From Onthophagus taurus (lineage: Eukaryota; Arthropoda; Insecta; Coleoptera; Scarabaeidae): a stretch of DNA of 64,000 bases. The DNA is taken from positions 9,431,501-9,495,500 of the forward strand of contig NC_091970.1 in assembly GCF_036711975.1 (NCBI RefSeq), written 5' to 3'. Both the position numbers and the translations under genes were made by a program. A model generated the notes under the pieces. The model did no database searches. It had not been told where the DNA came from and saw only the letters and a program-made list of their open reading frames with translations. This document shows positions 3,331 through 55,000 of the stretch, in pieces (the stretch's first letter is position 1; each line of letters begins with the position of its first letter).

Positions 3331-4320
3331 TGAAAATTGTTTCGATTACTTTGTAGTTTGAATTATTTACAAATATATAACAAAGAATATAAAAAACAAC
3401 CTCTAGAGCTATTAAAAAATGTCATTTTTTTCAATGTCATTCAAAACGGAAGATGGCGGAGTGTTACCACCATGAAGTTCGCGCTAATATGCTACTTTAA
3501 AGGTGCTCTTAATTTCATAATAACTCGAAAACATTAATTTCGTAGATATTTACCGAATATTATTGATAAAGCATGGAATTTATTTTCACTCATGTGAGCA
3601 TCAAGTTTGAGCCACAAAAAACTGACGTGTGACGTGTTTCTAACTTCATGTTAAAAAGGGTTTTTTATGGTTGGCAATAAATAATTTGACGTTTACTAAA
3701 AAAAAATGAGTCAATAAATACAAATAAAAACAAAACGTTGCGTTAAAATGACAGATAATAAATTAATATGACGTTTACAAAGTAAAGTTTGGTTTTATCT
3801 TTGTGCATAATCACGTGGGAAATTAAAAATCCTTTAATTTGAGTCCAAACACGATCCAATTATCTTAAAAAACACCCGAGATATCCCACATTTAATTTTG
3901 ACATAACTTCAAAAAAGTGACAACCGGAAGTTGGTGGTGTTTATTGTTTTTTAAGATAACTCGACCGAGTTTGGGCTCATTTTAAAGGGAATTTAATGTA
4001 GATTACGAATACGGTGTTGGTTTAATTAAATTCTGTCAAAATAAAGACAAAATGGCGGATAATTCAATGAAAAATGATACGATGTAAACGAAATTAAGTT
4101 CACGGGGGACTTTTAAGTAAAAATATAGAATTTCGCTATTATTTTATTAAAATTATTAATCAAGATGGCGAAAAATATCAAATAATATTAATTTGACGTT
4201 TATAAAGTAAGGTTAGGTTCTTTTTTATTCATAATCGGGTGGGGAATTAAAAATTCTTTAAATCGAGTCCAAACTAGTCCCGATTATCTCAAAAAATATC
4301 CGAGATATCCAACATTTAAT
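3331..4320. repeat. Intergenic DNA with a diverged 130-bp duplication
   Basis: No convincing gene. A block containing GACGTTTA.AAAGTAA, GAGTCCAAAC and CGAGATATCC occurs at about 3770-3900 and again, diverged, at about 4190-4320. The second copy is cut by the Foldback-like element. Its last nine bases, ACATTTAAT (4312-4320), are the left target-site duplication. Confidence 0.6.
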
Positions 4321-4968
4321 ACCGGTGTGAAGACAGCAGTAAAAATATCCGATGATACCCGAACGCCCATAGACGTCCGTAATACCAGACACACGGGGGC
4401 TCAATTTTTTCGAACAAAAAAATATTACATTATCAACTTAAGAAGTTAATTACAGTATATTAAAAGTAATTAATAGATTTATCACTAATATCAAGGTATA
4501 ATTAGCAATTTTAATTAAAATAACTGGCTCCACCTCCCTTAATGGTTCGAAGATCCGCACCAAACTTTATATACGCCTTCTAAACATGATAAGAAATATA
4601 TTTATCGAAAGAAATTCCACTTGTAAAGGGTCCGCGGGGGTGAACTACCCCGCAGTAGATTATAATTTGCTCTACCGCCCTTATTCGGTCAAAGATCCGA
4701 ACCAAACTTTACACAAGTGATCTAGACTACGTTAGAATCAAATATCCATTAACAATTTCCACTTGCATAGGGACCGCGGGGGTGAACTACCCACCAGTAG
4801 ATTTTAATTACCCCTACCGCCCTTATTCGGGAGAAGATCCGAACCAAACTTTACACAAGTGATCTAGACTACATTAGAATCAAATATCCGTTAACAATTT
4901 CCACTTGCATAGGGACCGCGGGGGTGAACTACCCACCAGTAGATTTTAATTACCCCTACCGCCCATAT
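4321..4968 (+). repeat. Left inverted arm of the Foldback-like element
   Basis: About 330 bp of unique terminal sequence are followed by tandem units. GGGACCGCGGGGGTGAACTA recurs 143 bp apart near 4770 and 4912. Each unit also carries CGCCCTTATTCGG and GATCCGAACCAAACTTTAC. The arm stops at about 4968, where a piggyBac-like reading frame begins on the other strand. Confidence 0.85.
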
Positions 4969-5392
4969 TTACCATTTTAGATAAACTTGTTTTCTAATCA
5001 GATGCTTTTTGCACATAAATTCATAGCACTCATCACATTTTTTTGTTGTATAATTATTTTTAGCCCTACCAAATAATTGGCATCGTTCTCTGATTTTTCT
5101 TGAATGTGGATCTGTTTGCTGCGGTGTCGATGGAGTGTCTATATCTGTTGGTTCTTGGAGCTTTCCCTTTTGGGTTTTAACTACCATGTTGGTTCAGGGT
5201 AGTTATTTGGCTTCTTTCAATCAAAAATCCGTTCATCTTCAATGCCAAATTTTTTAGAAAATCTTTTCTAAATTGCGGCTTTGCTTTTGTTTGTCGCTGA
5301 AACTGTACAAAATGTGGGCATTTATTCTTGCCATATTTATTGTTGAAAAAAGAGGATTCAAATTCGAATTTATTTAGTATAAATGTTAACAA
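4969..5392 (-). pseudogene. piggyBac-like transposase C-terminal fragment
   Basis: Minus-strand translation gives a segment containing QFRKDFLKNLALKMNGFLIE. This resembles the piggyBac region just before its C-terminal zinc finger, where a basic Lys/Arg run precedes a hydrophobic helix. A second frame follows with CQ, KCDECYEFMCKKH and a short tail, matching the Cys-rich C-terminal finger in spacing (CxxC...CxxH). The two parts are in different frames around 5170-5190, and the catalytic domain is absent, so this is a dead fragment. It lies directly against the left Foldback arm. No TTAA-flanked piggyBac ends were found. Confidence 0.55.
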
Positions 5393-5789
5393 TATTTATA
5401 TAAATACGTCAGCAGTCTTAACTTTAGTACTTAACAAAAAAATCATCGAACATCCCGTTGTTTACAGAACAAAAACATTAACATTAACCACCAAAGTCAC
5501 GCAAGTGTATGGTGTCGCACAAATAGTCAGAGTACGAATAGTAGGCCTTCCGAATGAAAAAAGTTTTAATTTTATTCTTGAACAGTTCAGGAGGCAACCG
5601 AGCAATGTCGTTCGGTATTTTGTTATAGAATTTTACTCAAAGAAATTTAAAATGGCACTGACTTCGACCTAGTCTACAAAAGGTCGGTCTCAGTTGGGTA
5701 CCATTTCTAGTCCGATATTTATGTAAAGTGTCATGACTAATAAAGTCGTCGAGATTTCGCCTTACAAATATTACACATTCCAAAATGTA

Positions 5790-7166
5790 CAGGGTGGTTC
5801 AAATTCGATGTCCGAATAGCCTAACTCGGAAACTATAAGAGTTAGAAAAAAAGTAGCTTCCATGTCATGATCTCGTTTTTCGAGAAACTGCTAATGTCGA
5901 AAACCTCATAACGCTATCGTCTTTTGTTTGTCCCCTAGAGACCAAAATTGAAAATATCGTAAAACCAGCAAGTGCAATTATCTTCGTCATTATTCTAGGT
6001 GGAGTATTATAACTAAGACATTATATGGACACTTTTTTACAGAGAATTTGATGATGTAGACAAAAAAATTTTTTCGGTTTTAGATTTTGAGATATCATGA
6101 CAATTTTCATTTTTTTAAATGGAAACAACCACTGATTATTCGCTTATTATATTCTTTATTTTTTTCTAATTACAAAAATATAGGGTTCGAAAGGTCTATT
6201 TCTTATTGTTTTAGAATAAAGGTAAAAACAAACTTTTTTTTATAAAATTTCCATCTAGTGTCGTCGACGAAATTAAATTTACAGTTTCCTGTAAATTACG
6301 GTACTATAACTAAAAATTATTCTACTAAAAATTTATATAAAATTTACTTTATTTTCTAATATGTAACATTCTAACATGTTGAACTTTTCGTAATCCATCT
6401 TAAAAAACAGGATTTTTAAAGTGACACTTCAGAAAATTTTTGAATACAAACAAATGTTGCTATGTTTATTTGAATTCAAAAAAAACGTATGGCGCCATCT
6501 AACAATAATTTATTAAGTCATTTAAGAATAATATTAAATATTAATAAAAAATGTGAAATAGTGCAATCTATTCCAACTTTTGTATAATTACATATATAAA
6601 TTAAATAGTTCAACAAATATATTTGTTTCAAATATCAGAAATATGTTTTTTTAATTTTTAATTATAGTACCGTAATTTACAGGAAACTGTAAATTTAATT
6701 TCTTGGAAGACACTAAAACAAAAGTTAATTTTTTGCTTTATTCTAAAACAATAACAAATAGACCTGTTAAACCCTATATTTTTGTAATCAGAAAAAAATT
6801 ATTAATTATTAAGCGAATAATCAGTGGTTGTTTCCATTTAAAAAAACGAACATTGTGATAATATCTCAAAATCTAAAACCGAAAAAATTTTTTTGACTAC
6901 GTCATCAAATTCTCTGTAAAAAAGTGTCCATATAATGTCTTAGTTATAATACTCCAGCTATAATAATAACCAAGATAATTGCGCTTGCTGGTTTTACGAT
7001 ATTTTCAATTTTAGCCTCTAGCGGAAAAACAAAAGACGATAGTGCTATGAGGTTTTCGGCATTAGCAGTTTCTCGAAAAACGAGATCATGACATGTAAGC
7101 TACTTTTTTTCTAACTCTTATAGTTTCCGAGTTAGCCTATTCGGACATCGAATTTGAACCACCCTG
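5790..7166. mobile_element. Palindromic mariner-type element, arms about 520 bp
   Basis: The element begins CAGGGTGGTTCAAATTCGAT, ends with the inverse complement, and sits between TA dinucleotides (5788-5789 and 7167-7168). The two arms (5790 to about 6310 and about 6650 to 7166) are nearly complementary, so almost the whole 1377 bp can fold back. It has no transposase. Its ends resemble the larger element at 49360-51779, including the block ATCTCGTTTTTCGAGAAA in each arm. It is inserted in the LINE remnant. Removing it restores the LINE reading across TA (TFPA-LY-ILEC). Confidence 0.85.
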
Positions 7167-7334
7167 TACAATGCCGGAAAGGTATATTATGGTTTGTAAA
7201 GGACCTACGGCAATCATCTATGTATGTTAGCGAGTTTATTATGTCACGAACCTCAACAAACGTTGCTTGATCAATGGAAAACCCACAATCAGCAACATTA
7301 ATTTTTTGCAAAAGGCAATCAAACTTATCATCTA

Positions 7335-8365
7335 CAGTGTGTCCCCGGATAGGTGAAACGACTCTTATAAATTGTAAATTTTTTTCGATATTAACTGTCA
7401 TCTTTTGGGGTTCAGGCCTGCTTGATTAAAGACTAATTTTGAACATATTTTCAAATTTTAAAAAACAAGTGAGTGTTGATACTGAAGCTAAAACTTCTTG
7501 TGTGTCAGGTAAAGTACCTTTTCTGTTTACAGTATGGTAAAATGTTACTAAGAAATTTTATTCAGAATGAAAAGTTATGGCCACATGCAAATTTTCATCA
7601 GCCTACTTTGATAAAACCTATTGTTTATTATTTTCGTCAATAGTACCTTATTACGACTTTTTGTTTTGAGATTCAGATTATTAGAGAGAAATAAACAAAC
7701 CGTTCTGAAAATGTTCACAAGAAATTAAGTGTGTGTTCGCCCACAAAGGAAAACAGTTGATCATAGTTAATCAGTTTCATCATAATTTTTTTTTCTTAGA
7801 GTGAATACTTCCTGCTGTAAGAAATCTTTTGATTAAACGCCAACAAGTACTTCTTTTAATTGCAGTATTTGGAAATTTTTCACAAAATAAAGCAATAATC
7901 GGTTTTTTCCCGGTTCCATAACACTGGATCACGTAAACTTTTTCCTGTAATGTTAACATTCTGTTTAAAAAACACTTTAAGTTTACTAAATTACAGTTTG
8001 AGAGATTAACAGTGATAGGAAAGCAATTTTGTTTTTCCATGGCAGTCTTTGTTAGAAATAAAATTGTTTGATATGGATTTTTTCAAAGTAGGCCGATCAA
8101 TCGGAAAATTTGCATATGGCCATAGTTTTTCATTCTGAACAAAACTTCTTAGTAACACTTTCACGTACTGTAAACAGAAAAGGTACTTTACCTGCCACAA
8201 AAAGAGTTTTTCTTTCACTATCAAGGCTCACTTGTTTTTTAATAATTGATAATATATTCAAAATTAGTCGTTAATCAAGCAGGGCTAAACCCCAAAAGAT
8301 GACAATTAATATCGAAAAAATTTTACCTTTTATAAGAGTCGTTTCACCTATCCGGGGACACACTG
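7335..8365. mobile_element. Mariner-type element with remnant HTH coding
   Basis: The ends are CAGTGTGTCCCCGGATAGGT and its inverse complement, with TA on both sides (7333-7334 and 8366-8367). The arms are about 300 bp, containing AAAGTACCTTTTCTGTTTAC and its complement. In the loop, minus-strand 7780-8040 encodes LTLQEKVYVIQCYGTGKKP and CEKFPN..IKRSTCWRLIKRF. That matches the N-terminal helix-turn-helix (DUF4817-like) of a Tc1/mariner transposase group in insects. The catalytic DDE part is gone, so it is a deletion derivative. It is the second insertion in the LINE remnant. Confidence 0.8.
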
Positions 8366-8686
8366 TATGTTGGACTTTTTTAAGCCATTTAGTAGTTCAA
8401 GAGGTACCTTAATAAAGTAATCATTAACATCATTTGGATCGAATTTGGCTTTAATTTTGTCTATTTTGTAGGCGCGTTTTTTTATTAATTATTTCCCATA
8501 TAATTTTACCCGAAAGGATAAAGTCGACCTCCTGGTTTTTCTAGTTACTATACATTGACACATTTGACCATTTGTGTCAACGCCCCCCTTCGTATTGGTA
8601 ATTTAAATCTACCGGTGGGTAGTTTACCCCCGCGGTCCCTATGCAAGTGGAAATTGCTAACGGATATTTGATAACGTAGTCTAGAT

Positions 8687-10389
8687 GAGTTGTCTGGTTT
8701 CAATATCCCCTAAATCCATTTTTGGGCAAAAATGAGATATATACGCCATCTGTTAGAAAAAGTTGTTTTCTATAAAATACTCAATGATTTGTATTAAAAA
8801 ACTCGCGAATCCCTTAAAAATTCAAATCAAATAGACAGCCTTTAGATATTAAAGAGAGCTACTTTCGATTTATTTTTAATACTTCCTTCAACATCGGCTT
8901 TGGATCTCCTAGCACCGATGTTTGCTCTAAGTGTCTTGAACTCCGGGAAAAAATTAAAAATGAAAAGGTTGCATCTATTAAAACAGTGCTAACTACAGAA
9001 TACCGAATACATAAGCTCAGGGCCAAAGCATTTTTTGAACAGCTAAATGAGAAACGGGACGGCCTTCTGACAATTTCTTTTGATTGTCAGAAAAACTAAA
9101 GTGGTATTGCCCAAAATACCAGATCAAAGTACCTATTATAGTAGACAACTGTACATTTACAACTTCACTACTGTAGTGGGGCACTCACATATTCCGTTAA
9201 CAAAAGATAATGTTAAAATTTTCACGTGGACTGAAGATGAACATGCCAAGGGCGCCAACGAAATTGCAAGCTGCGTCTTTTACACTTTAAACAATAGTAA
9301 CTTAGAGGGAATGGATACACTTCGATTGGTCGCCGATGGATGCGGCGGCCAAAATAAAAATACCATTATGATATGTATGTTGTTCAAATGGCTAAGCAGT
9401 ATAAGCAGTTCTATTAGAACAATCGAGCTGGTGTTCCCAGTGGTTGGGCACTCCTACATTCCACCTAACAGGGTTTTTGCTACTATCGAAAAAGAAATAA
9501 GAAAGAAAGAAGAAATTGTAATTCCAGAAGAATACATAAATATTTTTCAAGGACATGCTACTGTTTTTAAACTTGGAAAAGATGTTCCCGATAGTGATTG
9601 GAAAGGTGCTGGTCAAAAAATCCTTAAGCCAGTGTCTCAGTGGCATTTTAAATTTAACCAATGTAAGAGATATATTATACGACGTGGCAAAAAAAACGCC
9701 ATCACCATTCGAGGTGAGTTATCTTACCGTTCAGACACCGGAACATTCAAAGAAGTTTTTAGGAAAAATCAAACCGCCATGAATATCCAGCCAAAAGAAA
9801 TTCCTACCGGAGTGAAACCAAAAGATCTGAAAATGAGAGATGTAAATAACTTGTTAAGCAAACATTATGGAAAGAACTGGAGAGCGGTAGAAAATTTGGC
9901 TTATTATAGAGATGTGTTGGGAAAATTTCAGAACAATAATATTCCTGGCGATTCTCGAGAAGACAGTGGGGACGAAGAGCCTAGTTTATGTGAATCAACC
10001 GAAAATATACCTGATGTTACAGTTTAAGAGTTTTTTAAGTACAGTTTTTAAATAACATATCTTTCAAAAAATAAAGTTTCCTGTTATTAGCTACAAAGAG
10101 ATTTGATTCACTTTCAATTCATGCCTAATCCATTTTGTTCAGATTCAAATGAGCCTTAATCCACAGTTTGGTAGCAAACGCAACCAAACACCATTTTTAA
10201 ATCCACTTTGTGATTTTTATATCTATTTCAAAAGACGTGGTTATAGAATTTTTGAAACTTCAGTAAGTCTTCTAATAACAAATAAATTATGTTTGAATTA
10301 TTAACGCCAAAATCACCCCAAAATACTTTTTTGCCGTTTTCTCAAAATCGAAAAATTTGGACTTAAGGGTATTTGAAACCAAACAACTC
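8687..10389 (+). mobile_element. Sola-like DNA transposon, decayed
   Basis: The ends GAGTTGTCTGGTTTCAA and TTGAAACCAAACAACTC form an imperfect inverted repeat. It is flanked by the 4-bp duplication AGAT (8683-8686 and 10390-10393), inside the CTAGATCACTTG word of a Foldback arm unit. A 4-bp duplication and GAG termini fit the Sola superfamily as I remember it. The total length of 1703 bp is too short for a complete copy. It carries the transposase remnant at 8850-10027. Confidence 0.6.
8850..10027 (+). pseudogene. Sola-like transposase with CGGQNKN motif, 5'-truncated and frameshifted
   Basis: A first frame (about 8850-9090) reads SYFRFIFNTSFNIGFGSP..DVCSKC and TISFDCQKN. The protein continues in another frame from about 9093 with VVLPKIPDQSTYYSRQLY, FTWTEDEHAKGANEIASC and LVADGCGGQNKN, then ELVFPVVGHSYIPPNRVF, to a stop at 10027. 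The D...CGGQNKN and GHS..PPDR-like motifs occur in a widespread family of insect transposon proteins (DUF7869-like, from memory). Here the N terminus is missing and one frameshift lies near 9085-9095, so it is inactive. The acidic tail (DSREDSGDEEPSLCE) is still open. Confidence 0.7.
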
Positions 10390-10624
10390 AGATCACTTGT
10401 GTAAAGTTTGGTTCGGATCTTCGACCGAATAAGGGCGGTAGGGTTAATTACAATCTACTGGTGGGTAGTTCACCCCTGCGGTCCCTATGCAAGTGGAAAT
10501 TGTTAACGGATATTTGATTCTAACGTAGTCTAGATCACTTGTGTAAAGTTTGGTTCGGATCTTCGACCGAATAAGGGCGGTAGGGGGTAATTAAAATCTA
10601 CTGGTGGGTAGTACACCCCCGCGG

Positions 10625-12592
10625 CACAGTGGTCCGAGCGGTAAGAAAACCCGATCGAAAATATTATTTTGGTGTTAGCAATTAGCTAGCTTTATGAAAC
10701 TTGGCATATGATTATAAGACCAAAAGGGTAATGTGTCAAAATTTGAATTAAATTCGTCAACCGGAAGTAGTACTACGCAAGCAGTACTTTATTTAAATTC
10801 ATACTCATTTTCTTTTCATATAAATTAGGACTTTAAAGAAGAATATTACTATAAAATTTTGTGCAAAACATTAGACGTATATTACTTCACATTTTCTTGT
10901 GTAATTACGTGATCGCAAATTCCTATCTAAATTGTTTTATAGAGGACCTATACCGGATGTCTCACGCAACTGGTTCGTTAGAACTTTTTTAGGTACCACT
11001 ATTCGTAGCGGTTTGAAATTTTGACAACATGGATTGTTCATTCGAAGCTTTCGGTCTAAAATACTTTCAAGATGGCCGCCACTTCCGGTCTACCGGATGT
11101 AGACCACAACTTCGTTATTTTAAATGGAATGCTATAGTTTTTAATGCACCTTTTAATTATATTAGACAAAATAAGTTGACTTTGATAAAAGTTATTGGTA
11201 CCTACCATTTTTCGTTTTCGAGTTATTTTGTTTTTAAGTTTTTCTTTGGCAAATTACTTTATGCTCTTTAAAACCTTATATCTCAGCCAACGCTCATTCA
11301 AAAAAGCTCTAAATTGGCACGATTACTCTTGAGATGTTGTCAAACAGATTGTCATTTGTTGTATTAAAGTATCTTATACAGGGTGGTCAAAAATTGAATT
11401 ATCGTTTCTCCATATTCAATGGTAAGAAAGTCGAAAATTTAGAGATTTTATTTCAGAATTAGTTGGTTAGATAGCTCAATTTTACTTAGCTTTTACTAAA
11501 AATGTTTTAAGAACTATTCGAGAATAAACTCATCGCTCTTAATTTGAAGTGATATTGGAGACCATAATACGTAAGTTTGCAGCCTACTTATAGTAGAATT
11601 TTCCCATGATACTGAGATAGTCCACATACATTTCAAATTATTCGAGATAATATAAAATATTTTGTTATATTCACCAACATAACAAAATTTATCTCAATTT
11701 GTGTGAGTCTTCTTCATTTTCTAAATCTTGTTCCTCTATATTTACTTCTTCATCATTATTGTCTTCTTCTTCACTTTCTTCATCATCATCATCATCTTCT
11801 TTACCTTCCTTTTCTTCTAGAGATTTGTCCAGTATAAGTAAATTTTTCATGTCTTCATTCATATTTTTACATCTTTCTGAACATTCTTTATAAAAGTTAC
11901 TAATAAATGGATCGGAGCTCAGTAATAGTCTTTTAAATAAATCTTCATTTGTTTGAAGTCTACCACATTTTCTTGTGTGACACTCTCTAAATCTGCGTAC
12001 TTGTTTGTTTTTTGCTTCTTGATAAATAAAATCCACAATTATGTGTTAAGTAATCTTTGACTGTCAATTTTTTGGTTAAGGCGCACGTTGGCGCAAGATT
12101 TCTTTCTTATGCTATGTACACCATACCTTCAGCAATAAAAAAATGTTAGCTACAATTGTTCGATTTTGTTCGCTCGCAAGATATTTAATTTAAAAGATTG
12201 AATGGTCAAAAAATATAAGTATTTATTGACGTCAATAGAAATGGTTGTAATTTTTTTCAACAAACATCTTTTGAAATTTGGAAAGGCGTAAAATGAAGAC
12301 CTTTCTGTACTTTATAAGAAACCAACGACACAATATTTTCAAGTAGTGATATACCATCTTTTTTGTTTTCTAAAGTTGTGTCTTTTTCTAAAAAATTTCC
12401 TTATACAAAATAAGGTAATTGTAATAGCAATTTATTTCGCGCAGTAGCTATTATAAAACACCAAAGACTTCATAAACTTCACTAAGAGTCTATTAATAGT
12501 TAAAATATATGTAACATTTAAAAAAACAACACTATAAAATTCTTTTTTCAATTGATTTTCGATCGGGTTTTGAGTGTTTTCGGACCACTGTG
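10625..12592. mobile_element. Transib-like element with RSS-like ends
   Basis: Both ends begin CACAGTGGTCCGA. The flanks are the 5-bp GC-rich duplication CGCGG (10620-10624 and 12593-12597). A CACWRTG terminus with a 5-bp CG-rich duplication is the Transib signature; Transib is the family related to RAG1. Left end: CACAGTG, 12 bp, AGAAAACCC. Right end: CACAGTG, 12 bp, TCAAAACCC. At 1968 bp it is too short for a full transposase, and only a possible C-terminal piece remains (11689-12036). It interrupts a tandem unit of the right Foldback arm. The middle holds anonymous AT-rich DNA, including a CAAGATGGCCGCC stretch near 11070. Confidence 0.7.
11689..12036 (-). pseudogene. Possible Transib transposase C-terminal fragment
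   Basis: The minus-strand frame reads CHTRKCGRLQTNEDLFKRLL then LLSSDPFISNFYKECSE, followed by a long Asp/Glu run. Basic residues followed by a leucine-rich SSDP stretch and an acidic tail fit what I recall of the ends of Transib-type transposases, and the position inside a Transib-ended element agrees. None of the catalytic residues is present. The acidic tail alone could be low-complexity coincidence. Confidence 0.4.
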
Positions 12593-13190
12593 CGCGGTCC
12601 CTATGCAAGTGGAAATTGTTAACGGATATTTGATTCTAATGTAGTCTAGAAGATTTGTGTAAAGTTTGGTTCGGATCTTTGACCGAATAAGGGCGGTAGG
12701 GTTAATTAAAATCTACTGGTGGGTAGTTCACCCCCGTGGTCCCTATGCAAGTGGAAATTGCTAACGGATATTTGATTCTAACGTAGTCTAGATCACTTGT
12801 GTAAAGTTTGGTTCGGATCTTTGACCGAATAAGGGCGGTAGAGCAAATTATAATCTACTGCGGGGTAATTCACCCCCGCGGACCCTTTGCAAGTGGAATT
12901 TCTTTCGATAAATATATTTCTTATCATGTCTAGAAGGCGTATATAAAGTTTGGTGCGGATCTTCGAACCAATAAGGGAGCTGGAGCCAGTTATTTTAATT
13001 AAAATTGCTAATTGTACCTTGATATTAGTGATAAATATATTAATTACTTTTAATATACTGTAATTAACTTCTTAAGTTGATAATGTAGTTTTTTTGTTCG
13101 AAAAAATTGAGCCCCCGTGTGTCCGGTATTACGGACGTTTATGGGCGTTCGGGTATCATCGGAAATTTTTACTGCTGTCTTCACACCGGT
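12593..13190 (-). repeat. Right inverted arm of the Foldback-like element (outer part)
   Basis: This is the inverse complement of 4321 to about 4968. The arm is in three pieces because two elements landed in it: about 8600-8686, 10390-10624 and 12593-13190. Rejoined it is about 915 bp, roughly 270 bp longer than the left arm, consistent with two extra 143-bp units. Confidence 0.85.
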
Positions 13191-13199
13191 ACATTTAAT

Positions 13200-32576: not shown

Positions 32577-33255
32577 TTTAAGGTATGAAATTTCAATGAT
32601 TTGTAATGATGTAGAGATTAAATCCTAAAAAAAAATCAAGAGAAATGTCAAAATGTTAGGTTATGTTTTAAACAACACTTTATTTTTCACCAAATTTGCT
32701 TTTTCCCTATGTTGCAGTAGAATGTATGTATTTGTGTCTTGATGATCTAAATTTCAATCATTGTAGATTAAAATATAATGACGTAGAAGTTAAATTATAA
32801 AAAAATCGATAGAAACGTCAAAATGTTAGGTTATGTTTTAAACAGCATCTTCTTTTTCACAAAGTTTTCTTCTTTCTTATAATGAAATGGAATATACCTG
32901 TTGGTGTCTTGTTTGTTCGTCTTGATAATCTAAATTTCAATGATTGTAGATGTAATAATGTGGAAGTTAAATCGTAAAAAAATTAAGAGAAACGTCAAAA
33001 TGTTAGGTTATGTCATAAACAATATTTTTCACCAAGTTTTCTTTTTTCGTATGCTGCAATGGAATGTATGTATTTGTGTCTTGAATATTCGTCTTGATGA
33101 TCTAAATTTTAATCACTGTTGATTTAAATGTAATGATGTAGAAGGTAAATCATTAAAAAATCGAAAGAAACGTCAAAATCTTTTTCACCAAGTTTTCTTT
33201 TTTCGTATGTTGGAATGAATGTGTTGGTCTTGCTTGTTCGTATTGATAGTCTAAA
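32577..33255 (+). repeat. Outlying monomers of the zinc-finger gene 2 intron repeat
   Basis: Four monomers of about 170-180 bp contain GTCAAAATGTTAGGTTATGT, TTTCACCAA and GATGATCTAAATTTCAATCA. They match the start of the higher-order unit at 36035 but lie upstream of exon 1 of zinc-finger gene 2. Confidence 0.85.
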
Positions 33256-33257
33256 TT

Positions 33258-33555
33258 TCATCTATTAAATATTAATCATCTATTTATTATTAATTTATTA
33301 TTTTAAATTATTTTATAAGTTTAATAATAAACGATTGCTTACAGCTCCATCTATTGTATTTAAATCGAAAGATTAGTACCAACTTAAATTTTTTTTTACA
33401 AAAAATTCCTGTCAATTTTTAATTCAATGAAAATATTTATTAATTTAGCTTTTTTTCTTTCTAGAAATTAATAACATTACTTGAATATATATTTATTACT
33501 CTAAAAATGCGAAACTTAGGAATAAATAATGTTCCAGGTAACAATAATTTTCCAT
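33258..33555 (+). repeat. 290-bp dispersed duplicate, copy 2
   Basis: Second copy of 30760-31050 in the same orientation. It abuts the four outlying monomers of the intron repeat. Confidence 0.8.
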
Positions 33556-33559
33556 TTCA

Positions 33560-34255
33560 AATGACACAAAAATTATTTTGTGTTACAACAAAACTCATTA
33601 AATTAGAAAGGATTTACTAATCTATATACAATAAAATCTCTCATAAGCCTAATAGAGTGTGTAAAAAACCTATGAAATTTTAATATCTACAGGTGTCTCA
33701 AATTCGTTGTCCGCATATGATATGACAGATAAAAATTATAGAGATAAAAGTTAGAATTTGAGAAGAGGTTTTGCGAAAACAAATTGATGATGTCAAAAAC
33801 CCGTTATATTGTACTTAGTTATTTATTGATTACCAGTTATTAACCACCATTATGGTCACAATGAACCAATAGAAACGATTACGTCACATCCTGGTGGAAT
33901 TTAAAGTTATTTTAAAAGTTTAATTATGCGATTTTTAAATGTTTTTTTAGATGCAAGATGTTTTGAAGTAATATTAATTTCCTAATTGTTATTTCTTCTT
34001 GAAGCGATAAATTTCCATCGAGAATTTTAAGAATTTTTAAAATAACGGTAGTTGTCCGTGCGAATACCGGTACCCGTACAAAGTAACTGTACCGAGGCCG
34101 TGACGTCAAAACAGCTGCCGAAGAATCGTGAAAAGTACCGTTAAAAAGTACGACTATCCCTAAAAATATATGAAATAAACTTCTTTTAGGAACAAAGTTA
34201 AATTAAAAAAAATAAGAAAGTGTTTTAACTAAAACAATTGTAGAAAAGAAAAACT
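33560..34255. other. Non-coding DNA with one-armed transposon fragment
   Basis: Includes the mariner-type fragment near 33691-33810. The remainder is AT-rich and unremarkable until the GC-rich block at 34256. Confidence 0.4.
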
Positions 34256-34761
34256 TTAGAATCCGCATAGAGAATCTAACTCGCGCAGGTGAAAGTTAAG
34301 TCCGGGCATGGAAGTAGGTAATTGGGTCCTCGAACGTTTTCCCCCTCGACGCCTCACCGCCCCTTCGATTTCTCTTCTTTGCCTCTTTGTTCGTTTAGTT
34401 CGATTAGAAAAAGAGGAAAATGGTCGGTGTTTAGGTTGAATGGGTGGTGGGGGAGCGCCCCCGTCCACGTGACCTCGTCGACCCCACTTTCGAAACTCTT
34501 CGCCCACCTTTCCTCTACTGACGCGTCTTCGCGCGTTGTGAACGTTTTAAAGTTTTAAGCAGTGGTCCCCTTTTCGGGGGGTTTTTTCGCCCCTCCTGGT
34601 CTCTCCACGCAACAGGTTCTTATTTCGGGGGTTACCTCAAGGACTTTACTGTCAAAACATTTCAAAATAAGGTTATAAACAAAACTTTTAATTTTAATTT
34701 AAATTTTTTTATTATTTAAATTTTATTAAATAAATTTTTTTTTAAATTTTCAGATTAAAAA
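34256..34761 (+). promoter_or_regulatory. GC-rich block, putative proximal promoter of zinc-finger gene 2
   Basis: 34256-34640 is rich in C/G runs (CCCCCTCGACGCCTCACCGC, GGGGGGTTTTTTCGCCCC). A polypyrimidine acceptor at 34752 (TTTAAATTTTCAG) precedes the ATG at 34762 by 9 nt, so an upstream non-coding exon is spliced to this one. Confidence 0.45.
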
Positions 34762-37700
34762 ATGAATTTTACTCCTTTCGGTGTTGGTGTGCCCCTTACG
34801 GCGGCACTTCCGGTTGGCACGCAATTCACAACAGGAAAAATAACGCAAACGGGCACGACGACGAACGGACAAGTCGTCGGGGTGCTTCAAGGTTGTGAAA
34901 ATGGGGTACATTACATCCGGCCTTTGGATGCGAATGCTTTTGCGACGACGACACAAGCCCAAACTGCCCCCGCTGGACAACAGACGTTAATTACATTACC
35001 GATTACGATGCCAGGGGCGAAGCCCGGCGATCCACAACAAACTGTGCAAATACAGGTAGTTAATTCGGCAGCGCAACCTCCAACATCTCAAGCTCAGTCG
35101 CCAAAGTATCAAATCTCGCAAATACCGATTCAAACGTTTGGACAAGGTGCTACTGTTCTCACTGTTGCTTATAATTCTACGCAGGATGGTATACAAATTG
35201 TAAGTTTTAAATTAAACGTTATATTTGGGTTGGATATGAATTTTTAAGGTTATATTGAAAAATTTTAATTAATTAAGTATGTTGAATTTGATTCAGAAGC
35301 AAGATATGTTAATCATAAGTGATGATAATTTTCTTGATGTCTTATTTTAAGTCATTATTAAAAGATTTTAATTTATTCCCTATATATTTGCAGCAAGTTG
35401 GTGTGGAATTCTTCTAAGAAGGATAATTTTCCGGAAAATGTCTGTTTAATGCAATGTTATGAAGATGTTTTTCTTTATGAGGACACCAACAATGTCATAT
35501 TTACTGTGATTAAGAACTATTTATACAAGAATTGATCCATAATTTTTGATTCTGCACTTTTTCATCATTACATTTATATGGAAATCATGCAATTTGTAGC
35601 TGTTTAGACTACAACATAAGATATCATCCATGCATATACTTCATAAAATGTTAATGTGAATGTTTAAGTTTATGTGTGTCTTTTCAAACAAATAGAATTA
35701 CTTGCGTGTTAAGAACAGATCAAGATTCAAGGTTTAGACTTGGGAAAGGTAGTAATAGTCACTCAATCCACTCTGTAACTACCCCATGTTCTTTAAAGTG
35801 CATCATTCACATAACCTTACTTACAAAGGTAGTTCTATAAGTACTCAATCTGTAAAAATATATCTTTATTTCTCAACATAGTCCTCCTTTTAGTTGGATA
35901 CAACTTTTCCAATGGTGTTAATATCTTGTTTATTAGGAAAAACCGTCAATTTTTGTTGGGATAAATCTTTTATTATAAGCAACTTATCAAAAATACCTTT
36001 AAATGTGATGATAAAATTAATATTTTTACCTTTAAGGTATGAAATTTCAATGATTTGTAATGATGTAGAGATTAAATCCAAAAAAAAATCAAAAGAAATG
36101 TCAAAATGTTAGGTTATGTTTTAAACAACACTTTATTTTTCACCAAATTTGCTTTTTCCCTATGTTGCAGTAGAATGTATGTATTTGTGTCTTGATGATC
36201 TAAATTTCAATCATTGTAGATTAAAATGTAATGACGTAGAAGTTAAATTATAAAAAAATCGATAGAAACGTCAAAATGTTAGGTTATGTTTTAAACAGCA
36301 CCTTCTTTTTCACAAAGTTTTCTTCTTTCTTATATTGAAATGGAATATACCTGTTGGTGTCTTGTTTGTTCGTCTTGATAATCTAAATTTCAATGATTGT
36401 AGATGTAATAATGTGGAAGTTAAATCGTAAAAAAATCAAGAGAAACGTCAAAATATTAGGTTATGTCATAAACAATATTTTTCACCAAGTTTTCTTTTTT
36501 AGTATGTTTCAATGGAATGTAGGTATTTGTGTCTGGAATATTCGTCTTGATGATCTAAATTTTAATCATTATTGATTTGAATGTAATGATGTAGAAGGTA
36601 AATTATAAAAAAATTGAGAGAAACGTCAAAATATTAGGTTATGTTTTAAACAACACTTTATTTTTCACAAAATTTTCTTTTTTCGTATGTTGCAATGAAA
36701 TCTATGTAGTATTTGTGTCTTGATTATTGGTTTTGATGATCTAAATTTCAATCATTGTAGATTTAAATGTAATGATGTAGAAGTTAAATTATTAAAAAAT
36801 CGAGAGAAACGTCAAAATGTTAGGTTATGTTTTAAACAACAATTTCTTTTTCACCAAGTTTCCTTTTTTCGTATGTTGAAATGTATATATTGGTAACTTT
36901 TTTGTTCGTCTTGATGATCTAAATTTCAATCATTGTAGATTTAAATTTAATGGTTAGAAGTTAAATTATTAAAAAATCGAGAGAAACGTCAAAATGTTAG
37001 GTTATGTTTTATGCTTCAACAACACTTTCTTTTTTACAGTTTTCTTTTTTCGCTTTCTTTGGACTTAATCGCCCTTTCAGTGCAGTATTTGAGTCAATGG
37101 CCAAGGCAAAAACTCAATTTTATTACTTCTTTACTCTATTAACATTTAATCAATTCATTTACCACTATGATATTTATATTGGCCCCTCTTATTTATTGCC
37201 ATCTAATATTTGTTGTTGTAAATGCCTTTCTTGTGGTAGAATAGCTGGGTTCAAAATAACTTCAAAATCTTTTGATATAAATGAATAACATTTTATAAAG
37301 TAAAGTAACTTATTGTTTTATCAAAAGGAAACGTTATTAATGTAGATAATAATTCAGATTAACTCGCACCTCAGCACAGAACTATTTGAATTAATCACAG
37401 GAAATGTTCATAAATGGTGTTAATATCTTGTTTATTAGGAAAAACCGTCATGTTCCTTGTTACAGTCATTAACTGTTAATTTTTGTTGGGATAAATCTTT
37501 TATTATAAGCAACTTATCAAAAATACCTTTAAATGTGATGATAAAATTAATATTTTTACCTTTAAGGTATGAAATTTCAATGATTTGTAATGATGTAGAG
37601 ATTAAATCCTAAAAAAAAATCAAGAGAAATGTCAAAATGTTAGGTTATGTTTTAAACAACACTTTATTTTTCACCAAATTTGCTTTTTCCCTATGTTGCA

Positions 37701-40700
37701 GTAGAATGTATGTATTTGTGTCTTGATGATCTAAATTTCAATCATTGTAGATTAAAATGTAATGACGTAGAAGTTAAATTATAAAAAAATCGATAGAAAC
37801 GTCAAAATGTTAGGTTATGTTTTAAACAGCACCTTCTTTTTCACAAAGTTTTCTTTCTTATATTGAAATGGAATATACCTGTTGGTGTCTTGTTTGTTCG
37901 TCTTGATAATCTAAATTTCAATGATTGTAGATGTAATAATGTGGAAGTTAAATCGTAAAAAAATCAAGAGAAACGTCAAAATGTTAGGTTATGTCATAAA
38001 CAATATTTTTCACCAAGTCTTCTTTTTTAGTATGTTTCAATGGAATGTAGGTATTTGTGTCTGGAATATTCGTCTTGATGATCTAAATTTTAATCATTAT
38101 TGATTTGAATGTAATGATGTAGAAGGTAAATTATAAAAAAATTGAGAGAAACGTCAAAATATTAGGTTATGTTTTAAACAACACTTTATTTTTCACAAAA
38201 TTTTCTTTTTTCGTATGTTGCAATGAAATCTATGTAGTATTTGTGTCTTGATTATTGGTTTTGATGATCTAAATTTCAATCATTGTAGATTTAAATGTAA
38301 TGAGGTAGAAGTTAAATTATTAAAAAATCGAGAGAAACGTCAAAAAATTTAGGTTATGTTTTAAACAACAATTTCTTTTTCACCAAGTTTCCTTTTTTCG
38401 TATGTTGAAATGTATATATTGGTAACTTTCTTGTTTGTCTTGATGATCAATCATTGTAGATTTAAATTTAATGGTGTAGAAGTTAAATTATTAAAAAATC
38501 GAGAGAAACGTCAAAATGTTAGGTTATGTTTTATGTTTCAACAACACTTTCTTTTTTACAGTTTTCTTTTTTCGCTTTCTTTGGACTTAATCGCCCTTTC
38601 AGTGCAGTATTTGAGTCAATGGCCAAGGCAAAAACTCAATTTTATTACTTCTTTACTCTATTAGCATTTAATCAATTCATTTACCACTATGATATTTATA
38701 TTGGCCCCTCTTATTTATTGCCATCTAATATTTGTTGTTGTAAATGCCTTTCTTGTGGTAGAATAGCTGGGTTCAAAATAACCTCAAAATCTTTTGATAT
38801 AAATGAATAACATTTTATGAAGTAAAGTAACTTATTGTTTTATCAAAAGGAAACGTTATTAATGTAGATAATAATTCAGATAAAGTCACACCTCAGCACA
38901 GAACTATTTGAATTAATCACAGGAAATGTTCATAAATGGTGTTAACATCTTGTTTATTAGCAAAAACCGTCATGTTCCTTGTTACAGTTATTAACTGTCA
39001 ATTTTTGTTGGGATAAATCTTTTATTATAAGCAACTTATCAAAAATACCTTTAAATGTGATGATAAAATTAATATTTTTACCTTTAAGGTATGAAATTTC
39101 AATGATTTGTAATGATGTAGAGATTAAATCCAAAAAAAATCAAGAGAAATGTCAAAATGTTAGGTTATGTTTTAAACAACACTTTATTTTTCACCAAATT
39201 TGCTTTTTCCCTATGTTGCAGTAGAATGTATGTATTTGTGTCTTGATGATCTAAATTTCAATCATTGTAGATTAAAATATAATGACGTAGAAGTTAAATT
39301 ATAAAAAAATCGATAGAAACGTCAAAATGTTAGGTTATGTTTTAAACAGCACCTTCTTTTTCACAAAGTTTTCTTCTTTCTTATATTGAAATGGAATATA
39401 CCTGTTGGTGTCTTGTTTGTTCGTCTTGATAATCTAAATTTCAATGATTGTAGATGTAATAATGTGGAAGTTAAATCGTAAAAAAATCAAGAGAAACGTC
39501 AAAATGTTAGGTTATGTCATAAACAATATTTTTCACCAAGTTTTCTTTTTTAGTATGTTGCAATGGAATGTAGGTATTTGTGTCTTGAATATTCGTCTTG
39601 ATGATCTAAATTTTAATCATTATTGATTTGAATGTAATGATGTAGAAGGTAAATTATAAAAAAATTGAGAGAAACGTCAAAATATTAGGTTATGTTTTAA
39701 ACAACACTTTATTTTTCACAAAATTTTCTTTTTTCGTATGTTGCAATGAAATCTATGTAGTATTTGTGTCTTGATTATTGGTTTTGATGATCTAAATTTC
39801 AATCATTGTAGATTTAAATGTAATGATGTAGAAGTTAAATTATTAAAAAATCGAGAGAAACGTCAAAATGTTAGGTTATGTTTTAAACAACAATTTCTTT
39901 TTCACCAAGTTTCCTTTTTTCGTATGTTGAAATGTATATATTGGTAACTTTCTTGTTTGTCTTGATGATCAATCATTGTAGATTTAAATTTAATGGTGTA
40001 GAAGTTAAATTATTAAAAAATCGAGAGAAACGTCAAAATGTTAGGTTATGTTTTATGTTTCAACAACACTTTCTTTTTTACAGTTTTCTTTTTTCGCTTT
40101 CTTTGGACTTAATCGCCCTTTGAGTGCAGTATTTGAGTCAATGGCCAAGGCAAAAACTCAATTTTATTACTTCTTTACTCTATTAGCATTTAATCAATTC
40201 ATTTACCACTATGATATTTATATTGGCCCCTCTTATTTATTGCCATCTAATATTTGTTGTTGTAAATGCCTTTCTTGTGGTAGAATCTAGCTGGGTTCAA
40301 AATAACCTTAAAATCTTTTGATATAAATGAATAACATTTTATAAAGTAAAGTAACTTATTGTTTTATCAAAAGGAAACGTTATTAATGTAGATAATAATT
40401 CAGATAAAGTCGCATCTCAGCACAGAACTATTTGAATTAATCACAGGAAATGTTCATAAAGATATTTGTGTTCTTTATAATGCTTGACTTAGACTAAATT
40501 ATTTATTTGTTTAAATAACGTGAGTGCAGCGGTGTTCTAATAAGTCCAAACTTTTATCTACAGAGTCACAAATGTAAGCTTTGTGGAAGAAGAAGTAAGA
40601 AATAAATTTTTCTATTAATAATTATTAGTTATTGTAAAATTTTCAATCTAACCTTAAAGATATCTGAACCCAAAATCCACTATGTTGTATATAATAATAT

Positions 40701-49000: not shown

Positions 49001-52000
49001 ACGCAGTGTCTATTATAGCTAGGGCACGGAACTTTTGTAACAAAACAATACGATTTCCCCCCTCCACTCGTTCTCAGCAGAAAATTTCATACGAAAGTTG
49101 TTCTAAATTAAATTCTAAAACGATTTTCTCAAAAACAACTTATAAGTATCATTTACAACTGCTTCGGGCATTGAAATAACATTTAATGACTGTTATCAGT
49201 TTTGCGCATTCTTTCGTCCATGGTACACAATATTACAGAAGTGACTAAGACAATGTTCGGAAAATGTTTTAATTGTTTTTCTCTGCTAAAATTACAATTA
49301 ATGTTAATGTATTGTACATCATTGGGTTCAGAAAAAAAAAACTCTATACATACTCTGTACAGGTGTCCCAATTTCGATGTCCACATAGGCTATCTCCGAA
49401 ACTAAAAGAGATAGAAAAAAAGTAGCTTACCTGTCATGATCTCGTTTTTCGAGAAAATGCTAATGCCGAAAACTCCGAACAGCTATCGTCTTTTGTTTTC
49501 GCCCTATCGGCAAAAACTGAAAATTTTGCGAAAACGACAATAGCGAATATCTCACTTATTATCAAAGATGGAGTATTATAAATAAAACATTATATGGGCA
49601 ACTTTTTACGAAGAATTCAGTGGCGTAGGTAGAATTTTTTTCCCATCTTTTATTTTCGAGATTTGAGACATAACTTTATTTTTTTAAATGGAAACCATAG
49701 TTGGGTATGACCTAAAATAATTTGTTATTTTCTTCTGATAACAAATATATATAGTTTGTGGGGTATATTTCTTATAGTTATTGAATAATTAACAAAAATT
49801 CATTTTGTTCTATCTAAAACTAATGGTTGTATTTAAAAGTTAATGTTGCTATGGTGATAACCATACATACTATGATGGAACTTAATGTATCAATTTTTTT
49901 TGTTCTTTCTAAAACTATTGTATGTATTTAAAACTTAATGTTGTTATGGTGATAACAATGTCACGATGGAAAACATTGGGTACGTTCAGCAGGTGTCAAC
50001 AGTTGAATTAAATCAGTCAGCTAGTTGTATGAGCTTTAATACAGCGGAACGAAATCGGCTGAACAAGCAATTGAGAATTAGCAGTTCAGCATAACCTAAA
50101 ACTATGGCCAACAATAATATTTTTGAAAATTTTGTGTTATTACAAGAGATAATGGATGATGATGTTGATTTTAAGGCTCATTTCATTTTATACAGTTCTG
50201 CCAGTTTTCAAAATTAAAGGGGAGAAACAAAAAATATTAATCATAACCTAGAATTTCACAACCGCTGACAAACTAAGCGCAGATTACTTACGCTGAGATA
50301 TTTACTAAACTGCTGCGTAACAGCGCTGACTTAGCATATCGTTCAGCCGCGACTGCTAATATAGCAACTTAACAGTTGACACCGGCTGAACGTGCCCATT
50401 GTTTCCAATTATTGCCAAAGTTTGTAGTAGTATTTAAAAATTCACTGACAACTCTGGCATTATGTGCTGGTGCTCCGTCATATTGAAAATATATCATTTG
50501 AGACTTATTTAATGGCAAATTGTCGACCAAAAGCACAATGTGCTGCCTTGATATATTGAGGTATTACCTGAGTTTAAGTTTTTATGGTAGATACTATATG
50601 CCAACATTCTATTATCTAAAAGGGCACACCATACATTGAACCTCAACCTTCTTTGAACACTCAGAGACTTCATTGGTCCAGATGACATTTTGAACAAACA
50701 GCAGATTATTTAATTTTTCTAAATATCATCTACAAAATTCTAATCTTAGATTGACATCTCCTGCACGTAAATAATGAGTTAGGCCCGCTTTGTATGGTTT
50801 ATACATATTTTTCTTTCATATTCGGAAGCAGCGGTTTTTGGGTCAGACGTCTTGTTCAATTTCTCTGCAAGATGTTGATGGATTTATCGCAAGTGAAGCC
50901 AACACATTGACTTCATCCTCTTGCAGGCCATTTTGGTATGTTTTTGCACGTGGTTTGGGGATGGACCAAAAATCTATTAAATTTTCTGCTAACCGGCTGA
51001 AGGTTCTTATGTGCGGTTGTCTTCTTTCCGAATACCTTGTGAAATATAATTCCGCGGCTAACGTCGCATTCTTATCTGATAACATATAGCATTCCATCAT
51101 GTTACATTTTCATAATTTTCGAAGTCCATTGTAAAGTTTTATTTAGTTTTGTTATACTTTGACACCTAACATGCTGGTGCATCATACCAGCTCATAATGC
51201 CAGAGTTGTTATCGAATTTTTAAATACAAACTTTGGCAATTATTTGATACATTATGTTCCATCATAGTATGTATGGTTATCACCATAGCAACATTAACTT
51301 TTAAATACATACATTATGTTTAGATAGAAAAAACATGAATTTTTGTTAATTATTCAATAACTATAAGAAATATGCCCCACAAACTATATATATTTGTTAT
51401 CAGAAGAAAATAACAAATTATTTTAGGTCATAGCCAACTATGGTTTCCATTTAAAAAAATAAAGTTACGTCAAAAATCTCGAAAATAAAAAATGGGAAAA
51501 ATATTCTACCTACGCCACTGAATTCTTCGTAAAAAGTTGCCCATATAATGTTTTATTTATAATACTCCATCTTTGATGATAAGTGAGATATTCGCGATTG
51601 TCGTTTTCGCATAATTTTCAGTTTTTGCCGATAGGACGAAAACAAAAGACGATAGCTGTTCGGAGTTTTCGGCATTAGCATTTTCTCGAAAAACGAGATC
51701 ATGACATGTAAGCTACTTTTTTTGTATCTCTTTTAGTTTCGGAGATAGCCTATGCGGACATCGAAATTGGGACACCCTGTACAATAACGTGTAGAAAAAC
51801 ATACCGAGCAGTTTGAAAATCAAAAGTTGATAATCGCTTGAAATTAAAGATGGTTTTGGAAAAAATCTATTTGTAGCATGCATCATAGTATTCATCAAAC
51901 CATTTCATTTGTTACCTCACTCATGAAAATCGGACTGTAAATGACAGAGTTACAGCTTGGGGCGTTTTTTGTGTGACACCTGTATATAAAATTTTTTTGA

Positions 52001-55000
52001 GGTTATGTTGTTAATTATTGATCAAATCAAAAAATTTTATTAACAATATTTGTTTAGAATTACTTCAGGAACAGTGTTTGTTAATATAATTTTTTGCTAA
52101 CTTGAAATTTTAATTTCCCTCTGAATAGTATGCTATCAAAATTAATTATCTCAATAATTATTGTTTCTATCAAAAAATGTTTTAAATAAAATTTGTTTCA
52201 ATTTCGATTTTGAATCAATTATCTTAATAAAAAAATTTTACATTTCTATTAATTAAGCATCCAAGTGTAATTATGTATAAAAACGGAAAAATTATTATTT
52301 TCAGGTTATCTCCTTAATTATTGATTAAATCAAAAAATGTTGTTAACAATATTTGTTAAGAATTGTTTCAGGAACAGTGTTTGTTAAAACAATTTTTTTC
52401 TAACTTGAAATTTTAATTTCCCACTGAACAGTATGGTACAAAAATTAATATTTTTGAGGTTATATCCTTATTGTTGATTTAATCAAAAAATGTTGTTAAC
52501 AAAATTTGTTTAGAATTACTTCAGGAACAGTGTTTGTTAATACAATTTTTTGCTAACTTGAAATTTTAATTTCCCTCTGAATAGTATGCTATCAGAATTA
52601 ATTATCTCGATAATTATTGTTTTTATCAAAAAATGTTTTAAATAAAATTTGTTTCAATTTCGATTTTGAATCAATTATCTTAATAAAAAAATTTTACATT
52701 TCTATTAATTAAGCATCCAAGTGTAATTATGTATAAAAACGGAAAAATTATTATTTTGAGGTTATCTCCTTAATTATTGATTAAATCAAAAAATTTTTTT
52801 AACAATGTTTGTTAAGAATTGCTTCAGGAACAGTGTTTGTTAAAACAATTTTTTTCTAACTTGAAATTTTAATTTCCCTCTGAATAGTATGCTATCAAAA
52901 TTAATTATCTCGATAATTATTGTTTTTATCAAAAAATGTTTTAAGTAAAATTTGTTTCAATTTCGATTTTGAATCAACTATCTTAATACAAAATTTTTAC
53001 ATTTCTATTAATTAAGCATCCAAGGGTAATTAAGTATAAAAACGGAAAAATTATTATTTTGAGGTTATCTCCTTAATTATTGATTTAATCAAAAAATGTT
53101 GTTAACAAAATTTGTTTAAAATTACTTCACTAATAGTGTTTCTTAATACAATTTTTTGCTAACTTGAAATTTTAATTTCCCTCTGAATAGTATGCTATCA
53201 AAATTAATTATCTCGATAATTATTGTTTCTATCAAAAAATTTTTTAAATAAAATTTGTTTCAATTTCGATTTTGAATCAATTATCTTAATAAAAAAATTT
53301 TACATTTCTATTAATTAAGCATCCAAGTGTAATTAAGTATAAAAACGGAAAATTTATTATTTTGAGGTTATCTCCTTAATTATTGATTAAATCAAAAAAT
53401 TTTGTTAACAATGTTTGTTAAGAATTGCTTCAGGAACAATTTTTGTTAACACAATTTTTTTCTAACTTGAAATTTTAATTTCCCACTGAACAGTATGGTG
53501 TTCTTTTAATCAGAACGAGTGGAGGGGGGGAATCGTATCGTTTTGTTACAAAAGTTCCGTGCCCTAATTATAGCTCAATAAAAATATAGCAACAACAATC
53601 TAAATCTCAACAATTTAATGCTGAATAACAAATAAAACTAGACTAACACTAGAACTAGAAACATTCGTTGCATATTTTTATTGCACTAAAACCAGACCTA
53701 GAACTAGAATCATTCGGGTTTAGTCGTGCGTCTCTTAAGACCTTTTCCAAGCAAAACTTTTCCTTTGCAAAACTACCCCAGGGTTGCATTTTATGTGGGA
53801 CAGTGCAAGTACGTAGTAGTTTTGTAACAATGGTTACTACATTCATGTATTGCGAGTTATATGAAGTTGCCGGTATAACTAATTATATTTTGTAAAATAG
53901 GTGGTCAAAAAGAAATTGAGCGGGTTAAAAACGTCCTAATACAATCGAACGCCGTTTTAGAAGCATTCGGAAACGCAAAAACTAACAGAAACGATAACTC
54001 ATCCCGTTTCGGAAAATACATGGACATCCACTTCGATTTTAAAGGAGACCCTATCGGGGGACACATCAACAAATATTTATTAGAAAAAAGTCGCGTTATT
54101 TACCAACAAAACGGCGAAAGAAATTTCCATTGCTTTTATCAGGTTAATATAACAACTTATTTATCTATAACAAAAATTTATTAATTTTGTAATCACTTTA
54201 GTTATTATTCGGAGCCCCGGAAGAGCAAATAAAAAAGCTCCATCTAACGAGGAAAGCTGAAAACTACCACTATCTCCGTCAAGGAAATTGTTCCATCGTA
54301 AATACAGTCGATGATAAACGCGATTATAAAGACGTAATGTCATCATTAAGTACCCTTCAATTCTCGAAAGATGATATCGACACACTTTGGAGAGTAGTCG
54401 CCGCCGTTTTACACCTGGGCGATATCGAGTTTAAAACGGATGACGATAAAATACAATTAAAAGACACCAAAGAATCGAAAGAAGTCGCGAATTTACTCAA
54501 AGTTCCTCACGATGAGCTCACAAAAGCCCTTTGCGAGCGGGTTATCGCCGCGCATGGGGATATTATGAGGAAAGAACACACTCAAACGGAAGCTTTTTAT
54601 GGTCGAGATGCGCTTGGAAAGGCGGTTTATGACCGATTGTTTACCTGGATAGTTGGGAAGATTAATTCGGCGATTTCCGTTGATGATAATAATATAAGTA
54701 AACACTATCGGAGTAGTTTAATTGGAGTTTTAGATATTTACGGGTTTGAAATTTTTGATAATAACAGTTTTGAGCAATTTTGTATTAATTATTGCAACGA
54801 AAAGCTCCAACAATTATTTATCGAGTTAGTTCTTAAGCAAGAACAAGAAGAATATAACCGAGAGGGAATCGCTTGGCAAAACATCGAATACTTCAACAAC
54901 CAAATTATTTGCGATTTAGTCGAAGCCCCTCACAAAGGGGTCATTGCGATTTTAGACGAGGCTTGTTTAAACGTCGGGAAAATAACCGATGAAATGTTGT

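Follow-up and report, generated by a model that had tools for sequence, protein, structure and literature searches.

A repeat-armed foldback transposon of Onthophagus taurus, invaded by four other transposons, has same-ended sister elements with a transposase-like gene

The FB and FB-NOF elements of Drosophila melanogaster have foldback arms, 9-bp target duplications and, beside the arms, large gene-bearing copies. Judged by architecture, the same traits (foldback arms, 9-bp duplications and gene-bearing copies) recur in a family of elements in the beetle Onthophagus taurus, one copy of which lies in the window analysed here, a stretch of 64,000 nucleotides from contig NC_091970.1 (positions 9,431,501 to 9,495,500). 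We consider it quite probable that this window element belongs, as a non-autonomous copy, to a cut-and-paste foldback family whose transposase is supplied by sister elements, that its loop goes back to a gene-bearing one, and that four other transposons inserted into it later and independently.

Other systems were compared through their published descriptions. Tetris of Drosophila virilis has long inverted arms composed of an outer domain and variable ~220-bp tandem units around a variable middle, with 8-10 bp duplications, and no autonomous copy of it was found (PMC4079207). The O. taurus family has the same arm plan and differs in that sister copies hold a transposase-like gene. The Tm1 Mutator/Foldback elements of root-knot nematodes exist in gene-bearing and empty forms and combine foldback arms and mostly 9-bp duplications with a Phantom-type transposase carrying FLYWCH and MULE (Mutator-like element) domains (PMC3169594), whereas neither domain was matched in the protein of the O. 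taurus family. Rehavkus-1_TC of Tribolium castaneum (Repbase) is 9.5 kb long and has 9-bp duplications, a PHD finger in its transposase and inverted termini of tandem 164-bp satellite units, mostly five and eight monomers (PMC6446971, PMC10218199). The 9-bp duplication and the satellite units in inverted termini are both found in the O. taurus family. Compared by description, the units here differ in being 142 bp long and in forming arrays of up to 80, and the protein here has an Ulp1/C48 domain, which goes unmentioned in the available parts of the Rehavkus descriptions (PMC6446971, PMC10218199). On its architecture and a PHD-like finger, without a direct sequence match, the family probably belongs to the Mutator-related Rehavkus group. 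The openly licensed literature that we searched held no report of this foldback family, nor did it add anything about Rehavkus with Ulp1 or about Sola.

The window element begins with ACCGGTGTGAAG at 4321 and ends with the same sequence inverted at 13190, a span of 8,870 bp flanked on either side by ACATTTAAT (Table 1). Its arms are mutually inverted, two stretches of 503 and 103 nt being 96% and 97% complementary, respectively, and the right arm is a single arm, 8592-13190, split by a Sola-like and a Transib insert. The span is confirmed as a genuine transposon copy with long inverted ends built of repeats, invaded by four other transposons. An initial annotation, made from the letters of the stretch, had described one foldback-like element of 8.87 kb with a perfect 9-bp duplication, holding six foreign parts with nested duplications TA, TA, AGAT and CGCGG. 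That structure was right, and the ends, the arms and the 23 two-ended elements of the family bear it out; the unit, given there as 143 bp, has a length of 142 bp according to Tandem Repeats Finder (TRF). The interpretation placed on the structure is partly supported, as described below.

The genome searched (290.8 Mb in 33 contigs) holds 68 matches to the 24-base end, 34 forward and 34 reverse, in a whole-genome pattern search allowing up to two mismatches, and a reversed-sequence control gave 0 matches. We read 28 elements, the window copy and 27 fetched from the same genome. L-numbers denote the family loci read, C-numbers denote contigs, and the C3 element is a 19.8-kb gene-bearing copy pieced together from L024, L037 and L032. 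Both ends are present in 23 of the 28, the window copy and the C3 element included; L025, L026, L027, L035 and L036 have one recognised end and were excluded from the duplication count. All 23 two-ended elements are flanked by 9-bp duplications, 22 of them perfect (the C3 element bears GTGATATCT on both sides) and that of L033 with one mismatch. The 23 target sequences are all distinct and have no strong consensus beyond AT-richness. A single random 9-bp match has a chance of ~4e-6, and the shared ends and 9-bp duplications across copies show that the arrangement is a property of the family and not chance. For L009, L012 and L014 the fetched DNA includes paralogous empty sites, where a single target copy stands without an element and the joined flanks align across the junction; the target is identical for L012 and different by one base for L009 and L014. 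With inverted arms of tandem units that vary between copies, and duplications of fixed length beside the same ends, the family falls into the foldback structural class. Eleven of the 24 end matches that have one or two mismatches cluster at C2:28.67-30.51 Mb, perhaps an older subfamily.

Each arm consists of a head of ~294 bp followed by 0-80 tandem 142-bp units, as counted by a unit motif in the 23 elements. The arms of one element are often very unequal, with 11 and 80 units in the C3 element and 5 and 27 in L019. Within elements, the two heads diverge by a mean of 2.0% in 12 elements with A-type heads (the C3 element among them) and 1.3% in nine B-type elements; comparisons between elements average 2.4% and 1.6%, respectively. 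The heads of the window copy differ by 3.0%, placing it among the more diverged copies, and L033 and L034, diverged much further still, stand outside both the A and the B group.

The initial annotation had proposed looking for copies that share their ends but differ in their loops, and these were found in A, B, gene-bearing and mosaic forms. Nine of the 23 two-ended elements have an A loop (the window copy, L010, L012-L016, L023 and L031) and nine a B loop (L017-L022 and L028-L030); L009 is an A/B mosaic, L011 is another deletion form, the C3 element is gene-bearing, and L033 and L034 are diverged. An A loop holds a cysteine-rich, piggyBac-like fragment together with a remnant of the long interspersed nuclear element (LINE) type. 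The window loop minus its two palindromic inserts is such a loop, with main pieces 92-98% identical to those of sister A loops. In L011, position 561 of the C3 loop layout is joined to position 5310, and the diverged L035 and L036 continue past the A-loop edge at 1283, which indicates that short loops are deletions and not the ancestral state. The ancestral layout, judged from these comparisons, is most likely the gene-bearing one, with the short loops as its deletion derivatives. The idea that a loop without a transposase points to a special mobilising ability is not supported, as the window copy would itself be a deletion derivative, with transposase-like genes in sisters that have the same ends.

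Both pieces were named piggyBac and LINE by inspection and from their relatives, neither having a firm Pfam or PDB match. The piggyBac-like fragment has a weak match to Tc5_C (E 0.02), nothing relevant in the PDB, and distant matches of 32-47% in frames of up to 593 amino acids (aa). At 80-100% identity the LINE piece occurs at 16 loci, of which 14 belong to the 28 elements read (the window included) and two lie on contigs C6 and C3 outside that set, so family members carried LINE debris to many sites. A possible, if unlikely, explanation is that the family is a capture vehicle, similar to Pack-TIR elements, whose own mechanism took up and multiplied the piggyBac and LINE pieces. The closeness of the 16 LINE loci would fit such capture, since the next relatives of the front part, in frames of up to 950 aa, are only 52% identical (150 of 948 candidates scored, here and for the comparison that follows), and the piggyBac-like piece behaves like the LINE piece. 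However, nearer LINE relatives exist, with three further loci matching the last ~57 residues at 76-84%, and an ordinary LINE insertion followed by internal deletion suffices. In the long LINE frames the two matched parts are ~1.04-1.08 kb apart, which indicates that the loop copy lost most of its reverse transcriptase (RT) region, and L035 and L036 are without the piece at one point, with the sequence on both sides kept. No clean LINE target duplication was seen at the loop junction that would decide the matter; a 13-bp duplication suggested by overlapping BLAST ends failed on inspection. The four private inserts of the window copy carry duplications of their own. The suggestion that the element may have mobilised foreign DNA therefore holds for the piggyBac and LINE debris, the only foreign parts common to the family, and not for the Sola-like element, the Transib element and the palindromes, which arrived by their own transposition; nothing seen indicates that the foldback moved them.

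Two frames of 257 and 977 aa, with one stop between them, lie on the reverse strand in the loop of the C3 element. The 977-aa frame contains an Ulp1/C48 protease domain (PF02902, E 2e-10) and a PHD-like finger in which C4-H-C3 spacing is present by eye. Mutator-like enzymes have the catalytic pattern D-D-C2H-E, and the motifs FDATG, VVTD, CCxHF and SN-VE-K, kept in a two-sequence alignment with a 29% relative (an uninterrupted 1,380-aa frame; 1,650 bases fetched), resemble that pattern. A PDB search with this relative gave no match. Seven loci match the protein with a best piece of at least 82%. Two are in two-ended elements (C3 and L034). In L026 and L035 a left end was recognised, with the match 5-7 kb inward from it. 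Another two lie at most 10 kb inward of a family end from the end search, and the seventh has no listed end nearby and a piggyBac-like loop match 0.5 kb away. L026 holds a second copy of the gene at 99% DNA identity over 2.4 kb, about its front half, and both L011 and L026 share the C3 element's junction of gene-side sequence with the arm. Filing as a MULE was rejected as a direct match, PF10551 being absent from all protein scans, and KDZ/Zisupton, considered because of the Ulp1 domain, had no match among the listed Pfam families. Long frames of 1,107-1,436 aa that match the foldback protein at 29-30% (C1:19762011, C3:16044052, C15:5897409 and C7:28721349) have a C48 match in the same frame and are probably other transposons of the same group.

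The elements display shared ends, 9-bp duplications, a head with variable 142-bp arrays, common loops, and sisters with a transposase-like gene. We propose that a candidate transposase, which combines a D-D-C2H-E-like core with a PHD-like finger and an Ulp1/C48 domain, would be supplied in trans by sister copies, bind the ends and arms, excise the element and insert it elsewhere with a 9-bp stagger, with a possible role for the protease and PHD domains. The ancestral loop would have held the transposase gene beside the piggyBac-like fragment. A LINE piece would then have entered the loop, and deletions of the gene would have yielded the 1.25-kb short loop, which spread. Four transposons would later have inserted independently into the window copy, the palindromes into its loop and the Sola-like and Transib elements into its right arm. 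The unit arrays of the arms would grow and shrink between copies.

Several findings, on the protein and on the flanks of the window copy, weigh against this proposal. The PHD-like finger scores below its cut-off (PF00628, E 0.0015, 19.0 bits vs 24), and the core has no match to a Pfam transposase family, whether the 977-aa protein, the core piece or the 29% relative is scanned. The catalytic reading is based on two sequences and inspection by eye, and Rehavkus was compared by published description. The two best gene copies (the C3 element and L026) are both broken, at different places, and no intact copy of the close gene family was seen. A 4.7-kb stretch in L026 separates the arm-side piece from the gene, and the genome's 16 PF10551 matches coincide in no case with a match of the foldback protein. 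The core, the L026 gap and the presence of those 16 MULE matches would favor a different explanation, in which the protein is that of another element sitting inside some of the loops and the foldback is moved by an unseen transposase, such as a true MULE/Phantom. NOF, lodged in Drosophila FB, is a precedent, and one cited title terms FB-NOF non-autonomous. This explanation is nevertheless rather improbable, as the gene-side/arm junction of the C3 element is kept in L011 and L026, L035 and L036 are contiguous across the A-loop edge, and six of the seven gene loci lie within family ends or at most 10 kb inward of them.

On the flanks, the empty site of the window copy, which the initial annotation had suggested aligning, was not found in a joined-flank search (40 of 78 candidates scored); the check succeeded for L009, L012 and L014, at paralogous sites. 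The left flank (window 3745-4320) is a dispersed ~415-424-bp repeat that ends at the 9-bp target and has tandem copies on C5, C11, C16, C3 and C7, and the right flank was found once only. A joined-flank query of 600 bases, in which the target ends at base 300, gave 148 matches; two are the window's own flanks, and none of the others extends past base 302. Within the window, the preceding ~415-bp repeat unit also ceases to resemble the right flank immediately beyond the target. Either the array chanced to end there or a later change removed it. The missing empty site and the repeat ending at the target would also suit two separate insertions with a chance 9-bp match, which the initial annotation had named as its refutation, but this is scarcely credible given 22 other same-end elements with 9-bp duplications (21 of them perfect and one mismatched at a single base) and the same arm-loop-arm order in sister elements, and it is already refuted for the family.

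The nested duplications of the four inserts are TA at 5788/7167, TA at 7333/8366, AGAT at 8683/10390 and CGCGG at 10620/12593. Seven of the eight other A loops were checked at the palindrome sites (L014 left out). The site of palindrome 1 is uninterrupted with one TA in all seven, and that of palindrome 2 is uninterrupted in five and deleted in the other two. Arm units elsewhere show uninterrupted sequence at the insertion sites of the Sola-like and Transib elements. Dispersed full-length copies of all four inserts exist in the genome, which indicates that the inserts are transposable; copies of the Sola-like element are at 93-100%. Palindrome 2 has a weak remnant of the helix-turn-helix (HTH) family DUF4817 (E 0.027, below cut-off). 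Sola elements have a 4-bp duplication and a Sola transposase. The insert at 8687-10389, which we take to be Sola-like, has the 4-bp AGAT duplication and DUF7869 (PF25273, E 1.5e-7) as its sole Pfam match. Transib elements have ends that start with CAC and a 5-bp GC-rich duplication. The insert at 10625-12592 belongs with them by its CGCGG duplication and its transposase homology, as its coding remnant matches a 726-aa frame of L033 (E 3e-11) that in turn matches PDB 6pqn (E 2.6e-99; listed as a DNA-mediated transposase), a Transib enzyme. L033 is a diverged family element in which this Transib-type frame is uninterrupted (L033:6488-8665) and accompanied by LINE-like pieces, recognised by eye, which indicates that nesting recurs in the foldback family. 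Since none of the four inserts sits inside another, the only order given is the family loop first and then the four inserts. The insertion order read earlier from the nested duplications thus stands in that the piggyBac-like and LINE debris predates the inserts, and falls for the mutual order of the four.

Table 1. Parts of the foldback element and its target duplications in the window
Feature	Position	Strand	Remark
Left 9-bp target duplication ACATTTAAT	4312..4320	+	Other copies: different 9-bp duplications
Left arm head, end ACCGGTGTGAAG	4321..4614	+	
Left arm, ~2.5 tandem units of 142 bp	4615..4969	+	TRF period 142
Loop: family A loop (~1.25 kb) and two palindromic inserts	4970..8591	no strand	Main pieces 92-98% to sister A loops
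piggyBac-like C-terminal cysteine-rich fragment, 74-aa open frame, within family loop	4972..5193	-	Named by eye
LINE-type remnant, interrupted by both palindromes	5375..8512	-	Edges approximate, mapped from C3 element
Palindromic element 1 (5790-7166) with TA duplications	5788..7168	no strand	Single TA in 7/7 sister loops examined
Palindromic element 2 (7335-8365) with TA duplications	7333..8367	no strand	
Right arm, innermost piece	8592..8686	-	
Sola-like element, AGAT duplications 8683-8686 and 10390-10393; DUF7869 protein piece 9071-10024	8687..10389	+	
Right arm, middle piece	10390..10624	-	
Transib element, CGCGG duplications 10620-10624 and 12593-12597	10625..12592	no strand	
Transib C-terminal coding remnant	11692-12045	-	Inside 10625..12592
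Right arm, outer piece and head, end CTTCACACCGGT	12593..13190	-	
Right 9-bp target duplication ACATTTAAT	13191..13199	+	

Other repeats are found elsewhere in the window. An inverted repeat-like sequence at 49556-51582 is 93-95% similar to the flanks of the family element L029. A 170-186-bp tandem repeat occupies four blocks within 32602-40096, the last three ~1.5 kb apart, and a nested 153/303/456-bp tandem repeat forms two arrays, at 51990-53497 and 62039-64000.

Foldback elements frequently turn up without their mobilising enzyme, Tetris being an explicit case (PMC4079207). The O. taurus family ties tandem-armed foldbacks to a candidate transposase and points to a poorly described group of insect transposons. 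With gene-bearing, deleted, mosaic and nested forms that have the same ends in one genome, the way in which arms, enzyme and satellite growth are connected becomes testable. As a tentative extension, somewhat less likely to hold than to fail, Tetris-like insect foldbacks may be the non-autonomous side of one transposase superfamily with PHD and Ulp1-protease domains; their loops would spread other transposons' debris through the genome, and their arms would actively give rise to new satellite DNA, as suggested by the 80-unit (~11 kb) arm of the gene-bearing copy.

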